From: Actinospica acidithermotolerans | GTDB taxonomy: Bacteria; Actinomycetota; Actinomycetes; Streptomycetales; Catenulisporaceae | Direction: 5' to 3' | DNA: 44,367 nucleotides | Assembly (NCBI RefSeq): GCF_018139625.1 | Contig: NZ_JAGSOH010000060.1 | Span: 1-44,367, forward strand | In this document: one piece after another, positions 457 through 9,653 of the stretch | Numbering within the stretch: position 1 is the stretch's first letter | Layout: the number at the start of each line of letters is the position of its first letter | Translations under genes and position numbers: made by a program | Notes under the pieces: model-generated | Databases searched by the model: none | Told to the model about the DNA's origin: nothing | Seen by the model: the letters and a program-made list of their open reading frames with translations, nothing else

Positions 457-1923
457 CTAGTCCCGCAGCGTCTCCGGCAGCAGCTCGGCAGGGGCGTCCT
501 GGTAGACGACCGGGACGAGCCAGCGGCGGATGGCGGTGGCGCCCACCGAGGTGTGGGCGGGGGCGGTGGTGGCCGGGAACGGGCCGCCGTGGTGCTGGGC
601 GTGGGTTACGGCGACGCCGGTGGGCCAGCCGTTGAAGACGATGCGGCCGGCGATGCGCTCCAATTGGGGCAGCAGGTCGCGGGCGGCGGCGACGTCGGAG
701 GCGTTGTCGGGGTCGAGGTGGATGGTGGAGGTGAGGTGGCCGTCGCCGACGCCCGCGGGCGCAGGGGTCTGGTCGGCGGGGTAGGTGATGATCAGGCCGA
801 CGGGGCCGAAGTGCTCCTCGCGGAGGCGCTCGGCGTTGGCGCGGAAGTCCTGCTCGCTCACCACGTAGACGGCGGGGGTGGGGGCCCAGGGGCCGTCGCC
901 GGGCTTGCCCTCGGCGAGCAGGCGCACCCCGGGGACCCTCGCGAGGTCGTCGAGACCTGCGACGAGGCCGGAGTGGATGCGCTCGGCGAGCATCGGCGCG
1001 CCGACGGTGCCGGAGACGGCCTCGGCGATGGTCTGGAGCAGAACCTCGTCCTCGGGGACGAACATGATGCCGGGGTTGGTGCAGAACTGGCCGGAACCCT
1101 GAGTGAGCGAGCCCGCGTAGCCGCCCGCGATCTCGCTCGCGCGCTTGGCCACCGCGCCGGGGAGCACGAAGACCGGGTTGACGGAGCCGAGCTCGCCGTA
1201 GAACGGGATCGGGGTCGGCCGGTCCGCGCACAGCTTGGCGAGGGCGAGGCCGCCGCGGGTGGAGCCGGTGAAGCCGACGCCGGTGACGGCCGGGTGCTGG
1301 ACCAGGTGCACGCCCGCGGCGAAGCCGAAGACGATGCCGAACACGCCGTCGGGCGCGCCGATGCCGGCCAGCGCCTGCCTGACGAGCTCCGCGGTGCGCA
1401 GCGAGGTGTGCGGGTGCGCCTCGTGCGCCTTGACGATCACCGGGCAGCCCGCGGCGAGCGCGGAGGCGGTGTCGCCGCCGGCGACGGAGAAGGCGAACGG
1501 GAAGTTGGAGGCGGCGAACACGGCGACGGGGCCGAGCGGGCGGTTGACGCGGCGCAGGTCTGGGCGCGGGCCCTCGGCGTGCTCGACGATCGTGTCCTCG
1601 TACGTCCGGTCGCGCAGCACCTGCCCGAACAGGCGCAGCTGCCCGGTCGTGCGCGCCACCTCGCCGGTCAGCCGGGGCACGCCGAGCGCGGTCTCCCGGT
1701 CGGCGAGGGCGACGAGCTCGTCGACGTGCTCGTCGAGGATCGCGGCGACGGCGTCCAGGGCCGCCGCGCGGTCGAAGCCCCGCCACGCCGGGAACGCGGC
1801 CTGTGCGGCGGCGACGAGCCGGTCCACGTCGCCGGTCGGCGTCGCCGGTACGGGCGAGCCCGCGGGCTCGCCGGTGCGCGGGTCGTAGCCCTGGATCAGT
1901 TCCAGCTCAGCAGCAGCAGTCAT
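457..1923 (-). CDS. 2-oxoglutarate-semialdehyde (2,5-dioxovalerate) dehydrogenase, NADP-type
   Basis: This 488-residue aldehyde dehydrogenase would oxidise 2-oxoglutarate semialdehyde to 2-oxoglutarate, the last step of oxidative uronate degradation. Visible active-site elements are Asn140 in AASNFPF, Lys165, the FTGST loop at 218-222, the general base Glu244 in FYGELG and the nucleophile Cys281 in QFCTNPG. The FYGELGSVNPVF and GQFCTNPG stretches are typical of the ketoglutarate-semialdehyde subgroup. The start is supported by an AAGGA about 7 nt upstream. It lies 46 nt downstream of the uronate dehydrogenase gene on the same strand, probably in one transcript with it and the IclR gene. Length is normal for the family. 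The substrate is inferred from subgroup similarity and neighbours. Confidence 0.87.
   Translation of the reverse strand: MTAAAELELIQGYDPRTGEPAGSPVPATPTGDVDRLVAAAQAAFPAWRGFDRAAALDAVAAILDEHVDELVALADRETALGVPRLTGEVARTTGQLRLFGQVLRDRTYEDTIVEHAEGPRPDLRRVNRPLGPVAVFAASNFPFAFSVAGGDTASALAAGCPVIVKAHEAHPHTSLRTAELVRQALAGIGAPDGVFGIVFGFAAGVHLVQHPAVTGVGFTGSTRGGLALAKLCADRPTPIPFYGELGSVNPVFVLPGAVAKRASEIAGGYAGSLTQGSGQFCTNPGIMFVPEDEVLLQTIAEAVSGTVGAPMLAERIHSGLVAGLDDLARVPGVRLLAEGKPGDGPWAPTPAVYVVSEQDFRANAERLREEHFGPVGLIITYPADQTPAPAGVGDGHLTSTIHLDPDNASDVAAARDLLPQLERIAGRIVFNGWPTGVAVTHAQHHGGPFPATTAPAHTSVGATAIRRWLVPVVYQDAPAELLPETLRD

Positions 1924-1969: not shown

Positions 1970-1984
<15 letters not shown>
1951..1984. repeat. 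17-bp perfect tandem duplication over the udh stop codon
   Basis: Two identical 17-bp units, 1951-1967 and 1968-1984, abut each other. On the minus strand each unit carries the end of the uronate dehydrogenase gene, coding for Ala-Asp-Asn-Leu-stop, so the last codons and the stop are duplicated just past the real end of the gene. Confidence 0.95.
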
Positions 1985-2773
<789 letters not shown>

Positions 2774-2867: not shown

Positions 2868-3680
2868 TCATGCCGCGGTGCGCAGCATCGCGCCGAGTTC
2901 CGCTGCGTGCCGGACGACCGCTTCGGCGACGTGCGCGGCGTGATCGGCGTCGGCTAGGCGCGCGTTGGGCACGGAGCAGCTGATCGCCTCGACCGCCGGG
3001 TGCTTGTAGTCGAGCGTCGCGGCGAAGCAGCCGAGGCCCGCCGTGTTCTCGCCGCGCTCGATCGAGTACCCGCGTTCGCGGGTCTCAGCGAGGTCGGCGA
3101 ACAGCGCCGCGCGGTCGGTGATCGTCTTCGGGGTGACGGCGACGAGTTCGGCCGGGAGCAGCGCGTCGACCTCCTCGTCGGTACGGTGCGCGAGCACGGC
3201 CTTGCCGAGCGAGGTGGCGTGCGCGGGCAGCCGCCGGCCGACGCGGGAGGTCAGCCGCAGCTGGTGGGCCGACTCGCGGCTGGCGAGGTAGACGATGTCG
3301 GCACCGTCGAGCCGGGCCAGGTGCACGGTCTCGTTGACCTCGGCGCGCAGGTCCTCCAGCACCCGCGTCGCGGCGCGGATCACCGGGTCGCGGTCCAGGT
3401 ACGAGGTGCCGACCAGCAGTGCGCGCACGCCGATGGAGTAGCCGGTGCCGCGTCGGTCGGTCTCCACCCAGCCGCGGGCCACGAGCGTGCGCAGCAGCAC
3501 GAAGAGGCTGGATTTCGGGTACGCGAGCTCCCGCTGGATTTCGCTGAGCGTCAGCGGTTCACTGGTGCGTGCGAGCAGTTCGAGCAGCTCGATCGTCCGG
3601 TCCGCCGACTTCACGGCGGCGCTCGCGCCCGGCGCCTCGGCCGCCTTGACGTGCTCTGTTCGCCGTTCTAGGGTTCCCAC
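2868..3680 (-). CDS. IclR-family transcriptional regulator of uronate catabolism
   Basis: A 270-residue IclR-type protein is predicted from a GTG start. An N-terminal winged helix-turn-helix spans about residues 22-85 (AVKSADRTIELLELL, then SEIQRELAYPKSSLFVLLRTL). An effector-binding IclR domain follows to the end and contains GRRLPAHATSLGKAVLA and GLGCFAATLDY. The gene diverges from kdgD and heads the udh and semialdehyde dehydrogenase genes. I chose the GTG because it lies 6 nt after a TATGAT -10 box (3692-3687), which would give a leaderless transcript; longer versions run into the operator. A perfect palindrome upstream overlaps the promoter, which fits autoregulation. The ligand is probably a uronate or pathway intermediate, by inference only. 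Confidence 0.85.
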   Translation of the reverse strand: MGTLERRTEHVKAAEAPGASAAVKSADRTIELLELLARTSEPLTLSEIQRELAYPKSSLFVLLRTLVARGWVETDRRGTGYSIGVRALLVGTSYLDRDPVIRAATRVLEDLRAEVNETVHLARLDGADIVYLASRESAHQLRLTSRVGRRLPAHATSLGKAVLAHRTDEEVDALLPAELVAVTPKTITDRAALFADLAETRERGYSIERGENTAGLGCFAATLDYKHPAVEAISCSVPNARLADADHAAHVAEAVVRHAAELGAMLRTAA

Positions 3681-3686
3681 AGGTTC

Positions 3687-3716
3687 ATCATACTGCACCG
3701 TGTTCACGGTTGTGAA
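3687..3716 (-). promoter_or_regulatory. Promoter of the iclR-udh-dehydrogenase transcript
   Basis: On the minus strand a TTCACA (3716-3711) and a TATGAT (3692-3687) are 18 nt apart and resemble -35 and -10 boxes. The -10 ends 6 nt before the GTG start. The -35 lies inside the IclR palindrome. On the plus strand CATACT (3689-3694) could be the -10 of kdgD. Confidence 0.55.
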
Positions 3717-3719
3717 CAC
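3700..3719. promoter_or_regulatory. Probable IclR operator in the iclR-kdgD intergenic region
   Basis: A perfect inverted repeat with 8-bp arms, GTGTTCAC-N4-GTGAACAC. It overlaps the -35/spacer region of the iclR promoter and the expected start point of kdgD transcription. The core GTTCAC-N4-GTGAAC recurs at 9559-9574 before the glucarate dehydratase gene, which supports a shared regulator. Confidence 0.75.
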
Positions 3720-3738
3720 TCCCGAAGGGATCAGCCCC

Positions 3739-4662
3739 GTGCCGCCGAACGCCAGCCCCCGCCGCCTCGACGGCCTGCTGTTCTTCCCCGTCACCGCCTT
3801 CGACGCGGAGGGCCGGTTCGCTCCCGGCGTGTACCGCGAGCACGTCGAGGCGCGGCTCGCCGACGGACCCGGCGCGGTGTTCGCGGCGTGCGGCACCGGC
3901 GAGTTCCCGGCCCTCGCGCCGCAGGAGTACGAGCTGTGCGTGCGCACCGCGGCCGAGGCCGTGGGCTCGCGCGTGCCGGTGATCGGCGGCTGCGGGTACG
4001 GCACGACGCTGGCGAAGGAGTACGCGCGGGCGGCGGCGAACGCGGGAGCGGACGGACTCCTTGTCCTGCCGCCGTACAGCGCGGACGGCGGGCAGGACGG
4101 CCTGCTCCGGCATTACACCGCGCTGGCCGCGTCCACGGACCTCGACCTGATCCTCTACCAGCGCGACACGACGGTCTTCGCGCCGGAGACGGTCGCCGAG
4201 CTGGCGCAGGTGCCGAACATCGTCGGCTTCAAGGACGGCCGCGGCGATCTGGACCTGATGCTGCGGATCGTCAGCGCGGTGCGCACCGCGGGCGAGTCCG
4301 GGTTCCTGTTCTTCAACGGGATGCCGACCGCCGAGATGACGCAGCTCGCGTACCGCGCCGTCGGCGTTCCGCTGTATTCGTCGGCCGTCTTCTGCTTCGC
4401 CCCCGATATCGCGCTCGCCTTCCACCGCGCGATCGACGCCGGAGAGCAGAAGACCGTGGATACACTCATTGACGTGTTCTTCCGTCCGTACGTGCAGTTG
4501 CGCCACAAGCGGCCCGGATACGCCGTCTCGTTGGTGAAGGCGGCGACGCGCGCCGCCGGCCACGAGGTCGGAGCGGTGCGCGCACCGCTGACCGAACCGG
4601 CCCCCGAGCACGTGGCCGAACTCCTCGCGCTGCTCGACCGCACGAGGGCGGCACTCAGATGA
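3739..4662 (+). CDS. kdgD: 5-dehydro-4-deoxyglucarate dehydratase (decarboxylating)
   Basis: This 307-residue class I aldolase-fold enzyme of the DapA/NanA superfamily would convert 5-dehydro-4-deoxy-D-glucarate to 2-oxoglutarate semialdehyde, CO2 and water. The Schiff-base lysine is Lys165 in NIVGFKDGRGDLDLM and the partner tyrosine is Tyr140 in DLILYQRD. GTGEF at 52-56 forms the carboxylate-binding loop. GFKDGRGD is typical of KdgD rather than DapA. The GTG start follows a GAAGGGA site at a normal distance and gives the usual family length; the frame is open further upstream but there it overlaps the divergent promoter and operator. The stop codon overlaps the ATG of the next gene in an ATGA, implying translational coupling. 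Confidence 0.9.
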   Translation: MPPNASPRRLDGLLFFPVTAFDAEGRFAPGVYREHVEARLADGPGAVFAACGTGEFPALAPQEYELCVRTAAEAVGSRVPVIGGCGYGTTLAKEYARAAANAGADGLLVLPPYSADGGQDGLLRHYTALAASTDLDLILYQRDTTVFAPETVAELAQVPNIVGFKDGRGDLDLMLRIVSAVRTAGESGFLFFNGMPTAEMTQLAYRAVGVPLYSSAVFCFAPDIALAFHRAIDAGEQKTVDTLIDVFFRPYVQLRHKRPGYAVSLVKAATRAAGHEVGAVRAPLTEPAPEHVAELLALLDRTRAALR

Positions 4663-5801
4663 GAGGCCTCGGGGTCAATCTCTATCCGTGGGACGTCGCG
4701 GGCGACCCGGATTGCGCCGACCGCATCGCGGATCTGGGCGCCGACCGGGTGACGTTGGCCGCCGCGTATCACACGGTCAGAGCACTGAGCCCGCGTCACC
4801 CGACCCGAAAGGTCGTCACAGCCACCCATTCGGCCGTCTACTACCATCCGGACAGCGCGCACTGGGAGGACTCGCTGCTGCGCCCGGCCGAGGCGGCGTG
4901 GGCGCCCGGGTCGTTCACGGCGGGCGCGAAGGCGCTGCAGTCCGCCGGCCTGAAGGTCTACGCGTGGACGATCCTCGCGCACAACCAGCGGCTCGGGACG
5001 ATGCACCACGAGCACGCGGTCGTCAACGCGTTCGGTGATCCGTACGCGTGGGCGCTGTGCATAAACTCGCCCGAGGTGCGCACGTACTCCGCGCTGCTTG
5101 CTTCGGAGGTGGCGGGTCAGCCCCACATCGACGGCATCGAGCTCGAATCCTGCGGCTGGTACGGCTACGACCACCTGCACGCGCACGACAAGACCGGCGG
5201 CATGGCGTTCGACTCGGCGACGAAGTTCCTGCTGAACCTGTGCTTCTGCGCGGCATGCACGGCTTCTTATGCGGACGCCGGTCTCGACGGGCTGCGGGAC
5301 GTGGTCCGGGCCGCACTCGCCCCGGTCTTCCTCGGCGTCGCCGAGACCGCCACGCTGCCGGCCGATCTGCTGGAAGCCGTCTCGATCCTGCGCGTGAAGC
5401 TCGCCTCCACCTACCAGGCCGAGGTCATCGCCGCGGTACGCGCCACGCGCGCCGATCTCCCGATCCTGCTGCACACCTCGCCCGACGCGCTGGCGGCCGG
5501 CGCGAACCCGGGTGCGGTGCCGGACGGAACCTTCGGCGCGGTGCTGCAGTGCGGCGGCGTGCGTTCCGATGCCGCGCTCGTCGCCCTGCACGCGTACGCC
5601 GACGCGCTCGCCAAGGCGGGAACCCCGCAGCCGCTCGCCGCGACGCTGAACATCGTGGGCGGCATGGGCTGCGACAGCGCGGGGATCGTCGACTGGGCCG
5701 AGCAGGTCCGCGCGGCCGGGGCGGACGAACTGCGGCTCTACCACGCCGGAATCGCTTCGGCGAGCGACCTCACCGCGATCAAGGCCCTGAGCCAACTCTG
5801 A
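4659..5801 (+). CDS. Unrecognised barrel-like protein with a CxCxxC cluster, coupled to kdgD
   Basis: I do not recognise this 380-residue protein. It shows alternating strand and helix segments typical of a (beta/alpha)8 barrel: GVNLYPWDV near the start, KVYAWTILAHN around Trp103, GIELESCGWYGYDH with Glu161 and Glu163, and later ILLHTSP, LNIVGG and ELRLYHAG. A Cys195-x-Cys197-x2-Cys200 cluster resembles the zinc-binding CxCxxC of GH42-type and related glycoside-hydrolase-like barrels. There is no signal peptide, so it is likely cytoplasmic. Its ATG overlaps the kdgD stop (ATGA), so the two are almost certainly made together under the same operator. It may hydrolyse a uronate-containing glycoside or an aldarolactone, but this is speculation from context. 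Confidence 0.7.
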   Translation: MRGLGVNLYPWDVAGDPDCADRIADLGADRVTLAAAYHTVRALSPRHPTRKVVTATHSAVYYHPDSAHWEDSLLRPAEAAWAPGSFTAGAKALQSAGLKVYAWTILAHNQRLGTMHHEHAVVNAFGDPYAWALCINSPEVRTYSALLASEVAGQPHIDGIELESCGWYGYDHLHAHDKTGGMAFDSATKFLLNLCFCAACTASYADAGLDGLRDVVRAALAPVFLGVAETATLPADLLEAVSILRVKLASTYQAEVIAAVRATRADLPILLHTSPDALAAGANPGAVPDGTFGAVLQCGGVRSDAALVALHAYADALAKAGTPQPLAATLNIVGGMGCDSAGIVDWAEQVRAAGADELRLYHAGIASASDLTAIKALSQL

Positions 5802-5836: not shown

Positions 5837-5988
5837 CGTCGGATCAGGCCGCGGCGTCTGACGCGCGCGCTCGCAAGGCGCAGGGCCAGGCGCATACTCG
5901 GTCGTCTGCAAACGTCGGATCAGGCCGCGGCGTCGGACGCGCACGCTCGCAAGGCGCAGGGGCAGGCGCATACTCGGTCGTCTGCAAC
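5837..5988. repeat. Tandem 76-bp direct repeat, two units
   Basis: Two adjacent 76-bp units (5837-5912 and 5913-5988) differ at about four positions, and the first bases of a third copy follow. Each unit begins CGTCGGATCAGGCCGCGG and ends near TACTCGGTCGTCTGCAA. It fills most of the 252-bp gap between the unknown barrel gene and the convergent tetR gene. No convincing gene, hairpin terminator or CRISPR structure is seen in the gap. Confidence 0.92.
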
Positions 5989-6053
5989 CGTCCCTGCAAC
6001 GCCGCGAGCATGCGTGGCGGGCGCCGCGGACCCGGCGATGCTGGGGGACGCGG

Positions 6054-8255: not shown

Positions 8256-9545
8256 TCAGAAGCGCGGTGTGCGCAGCTCCCAACCTGGCTCGGCCAGCCG
8301 CATCGCGGAGGCGTCGTCGCGCACCCGGACGCCGCAGTCCTCGTACTGGCGGTTGAGCCTTTCGAGGGCGTCGTAGTCCAGTTCGACGCCGAGGCCCGCG
8401 CCGCCCGGCACGAGGAGCGAGCCGGTCGCGGTGTTCCATTCGAGGGCGCCGGGACGCACGACGTCCTCGCGGGTCCACGGGGAATGCGTGTCGCAGGCGT
8501 AGTTCAGGTTCGGCACGGCCGCGGCCAGGTGCGTCATCGCGGCGAGCGAGATGCCCAGGTGCGTGTTTGAGTGCATCGACAACCCCCAGCCGAAGGTCTC
8601 GCAGATCCCCGCGAGCTTCAGCGAGGCGCGGAAGCCGCCCCAGTAGTGGTGGTCGGAGAGCACGACCCTGACCGAGTCCAGGGCCACCGCCTCGGGGATC
8701 TCCTGGAACGCGGTGACGCACATGTTGGTCGCCAGCGGGAGCGACGTGGCCCTGGCGACCTCGCCCATCCCGGGGTTGCCGCCGGTCGGGTCCTCCAGGT
8801 ACTCCAGCAGGCCTTCGAGCCGCTTCGCGATGCGCTTGGAGGTCTCGACCGACCAGTTCGCGTTCGGATCCAGCCGCAGCGGGTGGCCGGGGAACGCGGC
8901 GCGCAGCGCCTCGATCGCGTCGGCCTCGGCATCCGGGTCGAACACGCCGCCCTTGAGCTTGAGCGAGGCGAAGCCGTAGGTGTCGACCATGCGCTGAGCC
9001 TGCGCGACGATGCCGGCCGGGTCGAGCGCGTCGCCCCAGTCGTCGTCCTCGTAGTCGGGGCCGGTGGCGCCGGCCGGGTGCTTGGCCCAGCGGTAGAACA
9101 GGTACGCGCTGTACGGCACCTCCTCGCGGACCGCCCCGCCGAGCAGGTCGCACACGCGCAGGCCGGTCGCCTTGCCCTGCGCGTCGAAGCAGGCCACTTC
9201 GAAAGCGCCGATCGCCTGGCCGACCGTCTTCTGCAGCGAGGCCTTGCCGACCAGGTCGGTGAGCGTACTCGGCGTCACCCCGGCGAGCGTGACCGCGACA
9301 CGCTGCGTCAGGCCATTGAGGTCGAACACACTCAGCCCGATGAGCGAGGGCGCGGCCTTGCGCAGGTTGTTCAGCGTCGGGGTGTCGCCGTACGCCTCGG
9401 ACAGGCCGACCACGCCCTCGTCCGTGCGCAGCTCGATGACGGCGCGAAGCTGGTAGGGCTCGTGCACGCCCGAGGCGTTGAGCAGCGGCGGGTCGAGTAC
9501 CGCCACCGGAGTCACGACGACATCGGTGATCTTCGGTGCGCTCAT
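8256..9545 (-). CDS. gudD: Glucarate dehydratase (enolase superfamily)
   Basis: A 429-residue enolase-superfamily enzyme that would dehydrate D-glucarate to 5-dehydro-4-deoxyglucarate, the substrate of KdgD. The KxK motif is Lys196 and Lys198 (SLKLKGG). Metal ligands are Asp226 (LDPNANW), Glu251 (YLEDPTGG) and Asn274, with Asp298 and the general base His325 (SMHSNTHLGIS) following. These match the glucarate dehydratase subgroup well. The start at ATG 9545 is chosen because GGGAGG sits 5 nt upstream; an ATG four codons earlier would abut the operator. The GTTCAC-N4-GTGAAC palindrome just upstream matches the one by kdgD, tying this separate transcript to the same IclR regulon. Confidence 0.92.
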   Translation of the reverse strand: MSAPKITDVVVTPVAVLDPPLLNASGVHEPYQLRAVIELRTDEGVVGLSEAYGDTPTLNNLRKAAPSLIGLSVFDLNGLTQRVAVTLAGVTPSTLTDLVGKASLQKTVGQAIGAFEVACFDAQGKATGLRVCDLLGGAVREEVPYSAYLFYRWAKHPAGATGPDYEDDDWGDALDPAGIVAQAQRMVDTYGFASLKLKGGVFDPDAEADAIEALRAAFPGHPLRLDPNANWSVETSKRIAKRLEGLLEYLEDPTGGNPGMGEVARATSLPLATNMCVTAFQEIPEAVALDSVRVVLSDHHYWGGFRASLKLAGICETFGWGLSMHSNTHLGISLAAMTHLAAAVPNLNYACDTHSPWTREDVVRPGALEWNTATGSLLVPGGAGLGVELDYDALERLNRQYEDCGVRVRDDASAMRLAEPGWELRTPRF

Positions 9546-9558
9546 GACGCCTCCCATT

Positions 9559-9574
9559 GTTCACATACGTGAAC
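9559..9574. promoter_or_regulatory. Probable IclR operator before gudD
   Basis: Perfect palindrome GTTCAC-N4-GTGAAC located 14 bp upstream of the gudD start. Upstream on the minus strand are TTGCGG and CATTAT 16 nt apart, which could be the -35 and -10, so the palindrome would lie at the transcription start. The same core occurs at 3702-3717. Confidence 0.72.
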
Positions 9575-9653
9575 GCTATGCATAATGCTGAACGGCTTGG
9601 CTACCGCAACATATGCCGTGGGATCAGGGGCGTCAAGCGCGTCCGGGCGTGAC

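Follow-up and report, generated by a model that had tools for sequence, protein, structure and literature searches.

In the retaining glycosidases of the GH-A clan, the acid/base glutamate ends strand β4 of the barrel and the nucleophile glutamate ends strand β7. The GH42 β-galactosidases carry, in addition, a cysteine cluster of the CxCxxC type, and Pfam lists GHL6 (PF14871) and GHL10 (PF02638) as families of hypothetical glycosyl hydrolases. Enzymes of the lactone step in the oxidative hexuronate pathway include Gci, a member of the enolase superfamily, and UxuL, which is SMP-30-like. According to a review, uronate dehydrogenase (Udh) yields lactones, proteobacteria use the lactonases UxuL and UxuF or the isomerase Gli at the lactone step, and the lactone shift 'appeared to be spontaneous'; a title cited there places Gli in the amidohydrolase superfamily (PMC6353982).

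The window analyzed here is a stretch of 44,367 nucleotides from Actinospica acidithermotolerans. It contains genes of this pathway and an ATG-initiated gene encoding a protein of 380 residues, referred to below as FAM (Table 1). A previous sequence-only reading could place this protein in no known family, and systematic searches agree: the window protein has no match in Pfam at E ≤ 1, in NCBIfam at E ≤ 0.1 or, using phmmer, among PDB sequences at E ≤ 1, which excludes a known Pfam or NCBIfam family. FAM was matched at E ≤ 1e-3 in 34 of 41 related genomes, the listed matches being free of internal stops, and this conservation rules out a chance open reading frame. One of these matches, a weak one of 82 residues in genome G028, was excluded from the FAM-positive count, leaving 33 of 41. 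A viral origin was also rejected, a query with this one protein returning no close relative among viral contigs. In annotated plasmid records, the homologues are mostly labelled 'hypothetical protein'.

Table 1. Positions of the features discussed, counted from the first letter of the window.
Feature	Position	Strand	Evidence or remark
Aldehyde dehydrogenase	457..1923	-	PF00171
udh, uronate dehydrogenase	1970..2773	-	3ay3, E 8.5e-61; Udh 3rft, E 1.4e-56
IclR-family regulator	2868..3671 (start approximate)	-	PF01614 and PF09339; divergent from kdgD
Perfect inverted repeat GTGTTCAC-GGTT-GTGAACAC, putative operator	3700..3719		Between the IclR-udh-ALDH and kdgD-FAM arms
kdgD, 5-dehydro-4-deoxyglucarate dehydratase	3700..4662	+	NF002958, E 8.7e-123; 4ur7, E 4.1e-69
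ATGA shared by the kdgD stop and the FAM start	4659..4662	+	kdgD TGA at 4660-4662; overlap of 4 nt
FAM, uncharacterized barrel protein, 380 aa	4659..5801	+	ATG-start ORF; conservation; predicted structure
Codon of Glu163, sole acid invariant across the FAM family	5145..5147	+	End of predicted strand β4
Codons of C195-F-C197-A-A-C200	5241..5258	+	CxCxxC
gudD-like glucarate dehydratase, enolase superfamily	8256..9557	-	3vdg 'probable glucarate dehydratase', E 3.2e-157
Second copy of the repeat, TTGTTCACATACGTGAACGC	9557..9576		2 mismatches; at the gudD start

kdgD may start at any of the in-frame GTG codons at 3700, 3712 and 3739. From its context, the aldehyde dehydrogenase is probably a 2,5-dioxopentanoate (KGSA) dehydrogenase; none of the 25 NCBIfam models listed for it reached its cut-off. 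The GudD-like protein scores 252 bits against TIGR03247, below the cut-off of 828.7. The window genome, rated 100% complete, holds a single match to PF08450 (SMP-30/gluconolactonase), which is weak (2e-4) and passes the cut-off when combined with its neighbours in the same frame; good matches are present in genomes G001 (E 6.4e-65) and G002 (2.2e-24) of the same genus and in most Streptomyces.

The ATGA overlap with kdgD pointed out by the sequence-only reading is present and recurs in related loci. Counts at these loci were taken from tblastn because the gene finder calls false antisense genes over some homologues (for example at L148). At least 565 relatives were matched, of which the 80 best were examined, a choice biased toward close ones; in this sample, a kdgD homologue lies directly upstream of FAM at 73 of 80 loci, and an overlap of -4, measured from the start codon closest to the expected FAM start, is kept in 54 of these 73. 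In the same sample, udh accompanies FAM at 72 of 80 loci; where each flank extends for 9.5 kb or more (57 loci), it does so at 56. Across the 41 related genomes, 33 encode both FAM and KdgD, one KdgD alone, none FAM alone and seven neither, with the partial match of G028 uncounted (Fisher p 3.6e-7, without correction for phylogeny).

The arrangement varies around this core. Five loci (L059, L071, L079, L099 and L111) have lost kdgD and keep FAM beside udh, and five others (L106, L107, L109, L110 and L112) show FAM with gudD and neither udh nor kdgD in view. The order gudD then FAM is found in other actinobacteria, and Nonomuraea gathers udh, IclR, kdgD, the aldehyde dehydrogenase gene and a gudD-FAM pair inside about 10 kb. 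In genome G008, the KdgD-GudD-Udh cluster holds just two FAM fragments and an intact gudD-FAM pair lies elsewhere. The gene company befitting an aldarolactonase or lactone isomerase, udh together with an aldarate dehydratase gene or kdgD, was found with the exception of L030, where FAM has full flanks and stands without udh and without a close kdgD. Udh was rejected as the sole partner of FAM: in genomes G016, G019, G027 and G028, a Udh homologue (E ≤ 1e-40) occurs without KdgD or a full FAM, and G016 has GudD as well. Gene order, co-occurrence and shared operator-like sites support the conclusion that FAM belongs with the uronate pathway genes.

Concerning these sites, the window contains four with at most 3 mismatches against 0.11 expected, the best two being those at kdgD and gudD. 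Of the 73 loci with kdgD upstream in the sample of 80 best relatives (out of at least 565), 45 have a site with at most 4 mismatches in front of kdgD, L097 among them being a contig-edge artefact; the control windows gave 38 of 1397. When 18 hand-chosen loci were scanned, 11 of 21 sites fell no farther than about 115 nt from the start of kdgD or gudD, spread over nine loci; the nine others (including L105, L107, L110, L112 and L113) had no site at either gene. The remaining 10 of the 21 lie away from these starts, against 0.9 in the control, which therefore understates the background. The IclR-family regulator may bind the putative operator sites.

The AlphaFold model of FAM is a confident (β/α)8 barrel (pLDDT 93.6, pTM 0.93), and its closest folds in a structure search are glycosidase-like barrels, mostly glycosidases; the barrel suspected from strand motifs is therefore borne out as a predicted fold of glycosidase type. 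The top neighbours are a fucosidase (6tvk, Z 24.6), Cwp19 (24.4), PgaB (24.0) and GH42 (22.7), where rows within one Z unit of one another are ties; VIA-align re-aligns chains ranked by Foldseek alone, and absence from its rows excludes nothing. The first of them, α-L-fucosidase isoenzyme 2 of Paenibacillus thiaminolyticus, superposes with an rmsd of 2.8 over 287 residues; it shares 15% identity with FAM and has 660 residues. To our knowledge it has no link to uronate genes, and our literature search found no paper on it. Cwp19 (5oq2) follows with an rmsd of 3.3 over 286 residues.

The model also has the barrel of the GH-A clan, GH42 and GH35 chains aligning at Z 19.8 to 22.7. The GH42 β-galactosidase 1kwg (Z 22.2, rmsd 3.1 over 299 residues) shares with FAM a glutamate ending β4 and a putatively similar cysteine cluster of the CxCxxC type, whereas FAM has no glutamate ending β7, counts 380 residues and is 10-15% identical to the GH42 rows. 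At the sequence level, GHL6 is matched by 4 of the 16 members of alignment A1 (E ≤ 1) and by 2 of the 81 members of A2 (E ≤ 0.1), the lowest E value being 0.002; the one listed score, 11.9 bits, lies far below the curated cut-off of 35, and the window protein itself is without a match. GHL10 is matched by one of the 16 A1 members (E 0.023), at 14.2 bits against a cut-off of 27.9. Profile searches of the PDB gave Cwp19 as the best hit of A1 (E 0.013) and nothing below 0.28 for A2. FAM differs from GHL6, GHL10 and Cwp19 in its neighbourhood, its own histidine-rich site and its CxCxxC signature.

Conservation was first compiled on 120 rows, 15 of which are near-duplicates (the same genes cut differently), and recounted on 105 distinct actinobacterial genes. 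Glu163, closing the predicted strand 159-163, is present in all 105. Glu161 is kept in just 96, the remainder having Leu, Phe, Asp or Val. The two glutamates noted earlier are thus both present in the window protein, and the barrel is predicted, but their role as a catalytic pair does not hold. The cysteine cluster read at 195-200 was correct: C195, C197 and C200 are invariant, as are a fourth cysteine, C134, and His38, His108, His172, His176 and Tyr361. Measured against the GH-A clan, Glu163 occupies the place of the acid/base residue, without a preceding Asn, and the nucleophile is missing in the 105 actinobacterial genes, which have neither Asp nor Glu at 326-334, around predicted β7 (strand 326-331). 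In two relatives from haloarchaea, an Asp aligns close to 331, at the end of β7, and D12 and D177 are lost in haloarchaeal relatives.

The proposed tie to uronate metabolism holds for close homologues, which mostly lie beside uronate genes. It mostly does not extend to distant haloarchaeal and Rhizobium relatives (24-31% identity), which are sited in other catabolic operons and mostly lack such neighbours in 13 annotated records (14 were hand-picked among 151 plasmid records with a match, the featureless L154 being read by tblastn). Their neighbours are creatininase, RidA, transporters and amino-sugar or inositol genes; in several haloarchaea, genes for an SDR and for a dehydratase of the enolase superfamily adjoin that of the FAM relative. 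Our literature search found no paper joining creatininase, RidA and mandelate racemase.

We tentatively favour FAM as an aldarolactone-processing enzyme, a lactonase or an isomerase, of the oxidative hexuronate pathway, a reading with a real though less than even claim. It is proposed because Udh, GudD, KdgD and the aldehyde dehydrogenase cover the pathway in the window except for lactone opening. The loci where FAM is kept with udh after the loss of kdgD, or with gudD, likewise point to lactone opening, the step joining the Udh product to the GudD substrate. FAM would act in the cytoplasm on the aldarolactone released by Udh, most likely opening the ring as an aldarolactonase or first isomerizing it; the ring-opened glucarate or galactarate would pass to GudD, and the GudD product to KdgD. 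Glu163 at the end of β4, with His38, His108, His172, His176 and Tyr361, might provide general acid-base groups or metal ligands in a glycosidase-like barrel, and C134, C195, C197 and C200 might form a structural metal site. Substrate, reaction, metal and catalytic roles are given here as we infer them. Our confidence is lowered by the strong PF08450 matches in congeners, by the half of the loci devoid of operator-like sites and by L030, devoid of partners. Aldarolactones also open without an enzyme, which counts against the need for such a lactonase. The reading is favoured by the window genome having just the one weak PF08450 match. Distinct from UxuL-type enzymes, FAM shows no PF08450 match. 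Its proposed place between Udh and KdgD is that of UxuL, UxuF, Gli and Gci in proteobacteria (PMC6353982). Literature searches found no paper on uronate dehydrogenase and 5-keto-4-deoxyglucarate in Streptomyces, nor one tying uronate dehydrogenase and KdgD to a 'hypothetical protein'.

A pure lactonase would need another dehydratase in genomes G023 and G034, which have FAM and lack both GudD (E ≤ 1e-60) and the GarD-type domain PF20629; the latter was found in none of the 10 genomes tested, these two included, so that GarD was rejected as the Streptomyces dehydratase. FAM could instead resemble Gci, converting an aldarolactone (or a galactarate) to 5-keto-4-deoxyglucarate by ring opening and dehydration, and in some Streptomyces Udh, FAM, KdgD and the aldehyde dehydrogenase would then form the whole pathway. 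Of the 57 fully flanked loci in the sample of 80 best relatives (out of at least 565), 14 show these four and, as far as the probes reach, no nearby dehydratase of the GudD, other enolase or IlvD type; GudD is present at just 2. Gci itself is described as a direct lactone-to-keto-deoxy-aldarate enzyme in the review (PMC6353982). A GudD homologue nevertheless adjoins FAM or shares its cluster in the window, L105, L108 and Nonomuraea, so that a second dehydratase would be redundant there unless it served another epimer, and G023 and G034 retain talarate/galactarate-dehydratase-like enolases scoring under the curated cut-offs. We regard a Gci-like activity as unlikely.

The sequence-only reading had offered a glycosidase or an aldarolactonase of the uronate pathway; the pathway company stood, and the aldarolactonase fits best. 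The glycosidase option, in which FAM would act in the cytoplasm on imported glycosides to release a uronate, or another sugar in the case of relatives, is weaker because Glu163 is the sole invariant acid and the end of β7 lacks Asp or Glu in the 105 actinobacterial genes. D12 and D177 are lost in haloarchaea, gudD-FAM pairs exist without udh in view, and no sugar transporter was found among the six L106 neighbours scanned. It draws support from the structural neighbours, the weak GHL6 and GHL10 matches, the sugar ABC genes close to some members and the Asp at the β7 end of two haloarchaeal relatives; moreover, Mfuc3, a fucosidase from functional screening, has a GHL6 match (PMC4723247). On balance this, too, appears improbable. 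Were FAM an accessory isomerase of uronates or aldarates (a mutarotase or epimerase) and no lactone enzyme, it would suit the same gene neighbourhood and an acid-base site of Glu, His and Tyr; this reading leaves the gap between Udh and GudD unexplained. We know of no glycosidase-type barrel with a mutarotase- or epimerase-type reaction, which further counts against the reading, and consider it very unlikely.

If FAM is an aldarolactone enzyme, it supplies the missing step that links Udh to GudD/KdgD in actinobacteria, where FAM-bearing genomes are, but for one, the kdgD-bearing genomes (33 of the 41 relatives sampled). It may then find use in making glucarate from uronates, and would represent a glycosidase-like fold performing other chemistry in both bacteria and archaea. 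A wider picture, which we hold to be rather doubtful, is that FAM founds a new family: a barrel of glycosidase type, devoid of the usual nucleophile, would have turned into a lactone-processing enzyme of oxidative sugar-acid catabolism, which in some Streptomyces would lead on its own from the Udh aldarolactone to the KdgD substrate and in haloarchaea and Rhizobium would have adapted to other oxidized sugars.

The sequence-only reading had placed a 380-residue barrel protein, here FAM, directly after kdgD and translationally coupled to it, and the frame and its overlap with kdgD were confirmed (table). The claim that it belongs to no known family was borne out by sequence searches: the window protein alone matched nothing in Pfam at E<=1, in NCBIfam at E<=0.1 or among solved PDB chains at E<=1. 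In the literature covered, mainly freely accessible, no title or abstract opening names it. The genome holding the window measures 7.9 Mb, and the closest named relative, among the best 80 of at least 565, is Actinospica durhamensis (L020, 70% identity), which points to a probable Actinospica-like host.

Features of the window around FAM and the operator-like repeats
Feature	Positions	Strand	Remarks
IclR regulator, udh, aldehyde dehydrogenase (ALDH)		minus	divergent from kdgD-FAM
GTGTTCAC-GGTT-GTGAACAC	3700-3719		perfect 8-bp inverted repeat, before kdgD
kdgD		plus	divergent from IclR-udh-ALDH
FAM	4659-5801	plus	start inside terminal ATGA of kdgD
76-bp unit, 2.1 copies	5837-5992		95% matches, just 3' of FAM
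TetR, aldo/keto reductase, gudD			beyond FAM
Second-best repeat site	9557-9576		2 mismatches, start of gudD

The enzymes surrounding FAM resemble solved structures: Udh matches uronate dehydrogenases (3ay3, E 8.5e-61; 3rft, E 1.4e-56), KdgD the keto-deoxy-galactarate dehydratase 4ur7 (E 4.1e-69) and GudD the probable glucarate dehydratase 3vdg (E 3.2e-157). One Streptomyces Udh, perhaps not one of those counted here, was expressed and proved active on glucuronate and galacturonate (PMC4476818).

Gene neighbourhoods were surveyed in 80 named loci, the best 80 of at least 565 relatives. A KdgD homologue sits immediately before FAM in the same orientation in 73, Udh was found by tblastn in 72 and IlvD is present in 39. 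With the FAM start taken as the codon closest to the expected place, the distance from the kdgD stop is -4 in 54 of the 73 and -1 in four; for the other 15 it ranges from 5 to 77 nt. Seven loci have no directly upstream KdgD, and in one of them (L051) the sequence starts only 46 bases before the FAM match, too little to show one. Of the 57 loci flanked by at least 9.5 kb on either side, 56 contain Udh, 54 a KdgD-like protein (80 bits or more), 32 IlvD, 21 IclR, 18 ALDH and two GudD. Four loci (L059, L071, L079, L099) keep Udh with no KdgD of 150 bits found, as does, similarly, L111, and the fully flanked L030 has neither Udh nor a close KdgD. In some Streptomyces loci (L033, L038, L046, L084 and others), a gene group downstream of FAM comprises GntR, a DHDPS-type protein, an IlvD/EDD dehydratase, ABC permeases, Gfo/Idh and DUF6807.

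Split arrangements are found as well. Genus g2, among the related genomes, offers the order KdgD-GudD-FAM-Udh (L105) and gudD-FAM pairs with no udh or kdgD in view (L106, L107, L109, L110, L112). Genome G008 combines the intact pair at L112 with a KdgD-GudD-Udh cluster (L113) in which FAM is reduced to two fragments; these lie between gudD and udh and match FAM solely at its two ends, as though the middle had dropped out. Genome G038 has IclR and KdgD-GudD-FAM-ALDH (L108), and Nonomuraea has udh, IclR, kdgD and ALDH plus gudD-FAM (L154). FAM is thus paired variously with udh, kdgD and gudD, the pattern expected of an enzyme acting between Udh and KdgD.

Among 41 related genomes, with an 82-residue match in G028 (3.5e-4) scored as absence, FAM and KdgD occur together in 33, KdgD alone in G040 and neither in seven (Fisher p 3.6e-7; 3.0e-5 when restricted to the 26 g4 genomes, taken as Streptomyces; both ignoring shared ancestry). 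In G026, KdgD is located away from FAM, next to GudD. The association with Udh is looser, four genomes (G016, G019, G027, G028) having a Udh homologue (E<=1e-40) without KdgD or a full FAM. Across phylum samples, a protein search detected FAM in 12 of 296 genomes and a profile search in 20 of 396, five of these 20 matching only weakly (4.5e-5 to 8.5e-4).

The window contains four sites of the inverted repeat at up to three mismatches, against 0.11 expected, and those before kdgD and at gudD suggest that both genes share one regulon; we infer that IclR is the binder. Of the 21 sites in 18 hand-picked loci, 11 are no more than about 115 nt away from the start of kdgD or gudD, and these are spread over nine loci that include the gudD-FAM pairs L106 and L109; L105, L107, L110, L112 and L113 have none near such a start. 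Shuffled controls gave 0.6 and 0.9 sites per set, and the real background is higher, since ten of the 21 sites lie away from these starts. At up to four mismatches, a site precedes kdgD in 45 of the 73 loci (one, L097, being an edge artefact), compared with 38 of 1397 control windows taken from these loci, and in 28 none was found. A variant, TTCAC-N4-GTGGACAC, precedes kdgD in many Streptomyces.

The predicted barrel was upheld by a confident AlphaFold2 model (81 sequences, mean pLDDT 93.6, pTM 0.93), least certain in loop 171-180 (block mean 63). Its nearest folds by Foldseek, then VIA-align, are glycosidase-like, Z differences within 1 being ties: fucosidase 6tvk (Z 24.6, rmsd 2.8, 287 aligned), Cwp19 (24.4, 3.3, 286), the PgaB C-terminal domain (24.0, 3.5, 310) and GH42 (22.7, 3.1, 299), followed by a glucosyltransferase, beta-amylases and GH35. 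This fold favours a glycosidase, one of the functions originally proposed, and the fucosidase Mfuc3 has a GHL6 hit (PMC4723247); the conserved residues, however, do not fit. Throughout 105 distinct actinobacterial FAM genes, Y37, H38, W103, H108, N123, C134, E163, H172, H176, C195, C197, C200 and Y361 are invariant. Of the paired glutamates previously proposed, E163 is thus invariant and E161 is kept in 96 of 105; positions 326-334, where beta7 ends, never carry a D or E in these genes. Nine sequences from Actinobacteria, Rhizobium and haloarchaea (24-50% identity to window FAM) keep E163, the four His, Y361 and the four Cys, but D12 and D177 are not retained throughout; an Asp lines up near 331 in both haloarchaeal sequences. 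Because E163 is the sole invariant acid and the end of beta7 is acid-free in the actinobacterial genes, these alignments make a classical two-acid glycosidase unlikely in this branch and leave a His-rich site with a single Glu.

We favour an aldarolactone-processing enzyme, the other original proposal. Among the window's enzymes, Udh accounts for uronate to aldarolactone, GudD for glucarate to keto-deoxyglucarate, and KdgD with ALDH for the way on to 2-oxoglutarate; lactone opening, the step left uncovered, would fall to FAM. Proteobacteria employ Gli, Gci, UxuL or UxuF at this step (PMC6353982). PF08450 finds a single weak match in the window genome (2e-4), above cut-off only when its neighbours in the frame are included; as G001 and G002, of the same genus, have good matches, this lends the lactone reading weak support. 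Two genomes (G023, G034) have no GudD at E<=1e-60 and no GarD-type PF20629, which counts against lactone processing and suits a Gci-like enzyme, as do 14 of the 57 fully flanked loci with Udh, FAM, KdgD and ALDH and no recognised dehydratase; both genomes carry talarate/galactarate-type enolases, below cut-off.

Searched by tblastn, the family extends to 151 plasmid records, 113 from Rhizobium and the remainder mostly haloarchaeal. Among the matches listed, the protein is annotated as 'hypothetical protein', in a few cases as 'family 10 glycosylhydrolase' or as 'putative glycoside hydrolase', or has no annotation. Gene context was collected for 14 records, including nine haloarchaeal and four Rhizobium loci. 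A mandelate racemase/enolase-type gene adjoins FAM in five of the nine haloarchaeal loci (L151, L155, L156, L158, L162), and creatininase (8), SDR (8), RidA (6) and IclR (6) recur; the Halomicrobium locus adds a dihydrodipicolinate-synthase-type gene. Together with L157, these five hold varying sets of FAM homologue, enolase-type dehydratase, creatininase, SDR, RidA, IclR and sugar ABC transporter genes. In Haladaptatus caseinilyticus (L152), the homologue is flanked by serine hydrolase and DUF1343 genes near AnmK, NagZ and GH18, an amino-sugar setting in an archaeon. The expected proximity to uronate genes holds for most close relatives and mostly fails for the distant ones in Rhizobium and haloarchaea; the four Rhizobium loci (L149, L150, L153, L161) have no annotated udh, gudD or kdgD. 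Three of these (L149, L150, L161) group the homologue with AstE-like, RidA, alanine-racemase-like, amidohydrolase and sugar ABC genes. Distant actinobacterial members (L102, L103) adjoin creatininase, a metallo-beta-lactamase-fold protein and Gfo/Idh.

The family at large thus belongs to catabolic operons, and a uronate role is supported for the window's branch only. FAM is a recognisable barrel of a family found undescribed, with a probable role in a known pathway.
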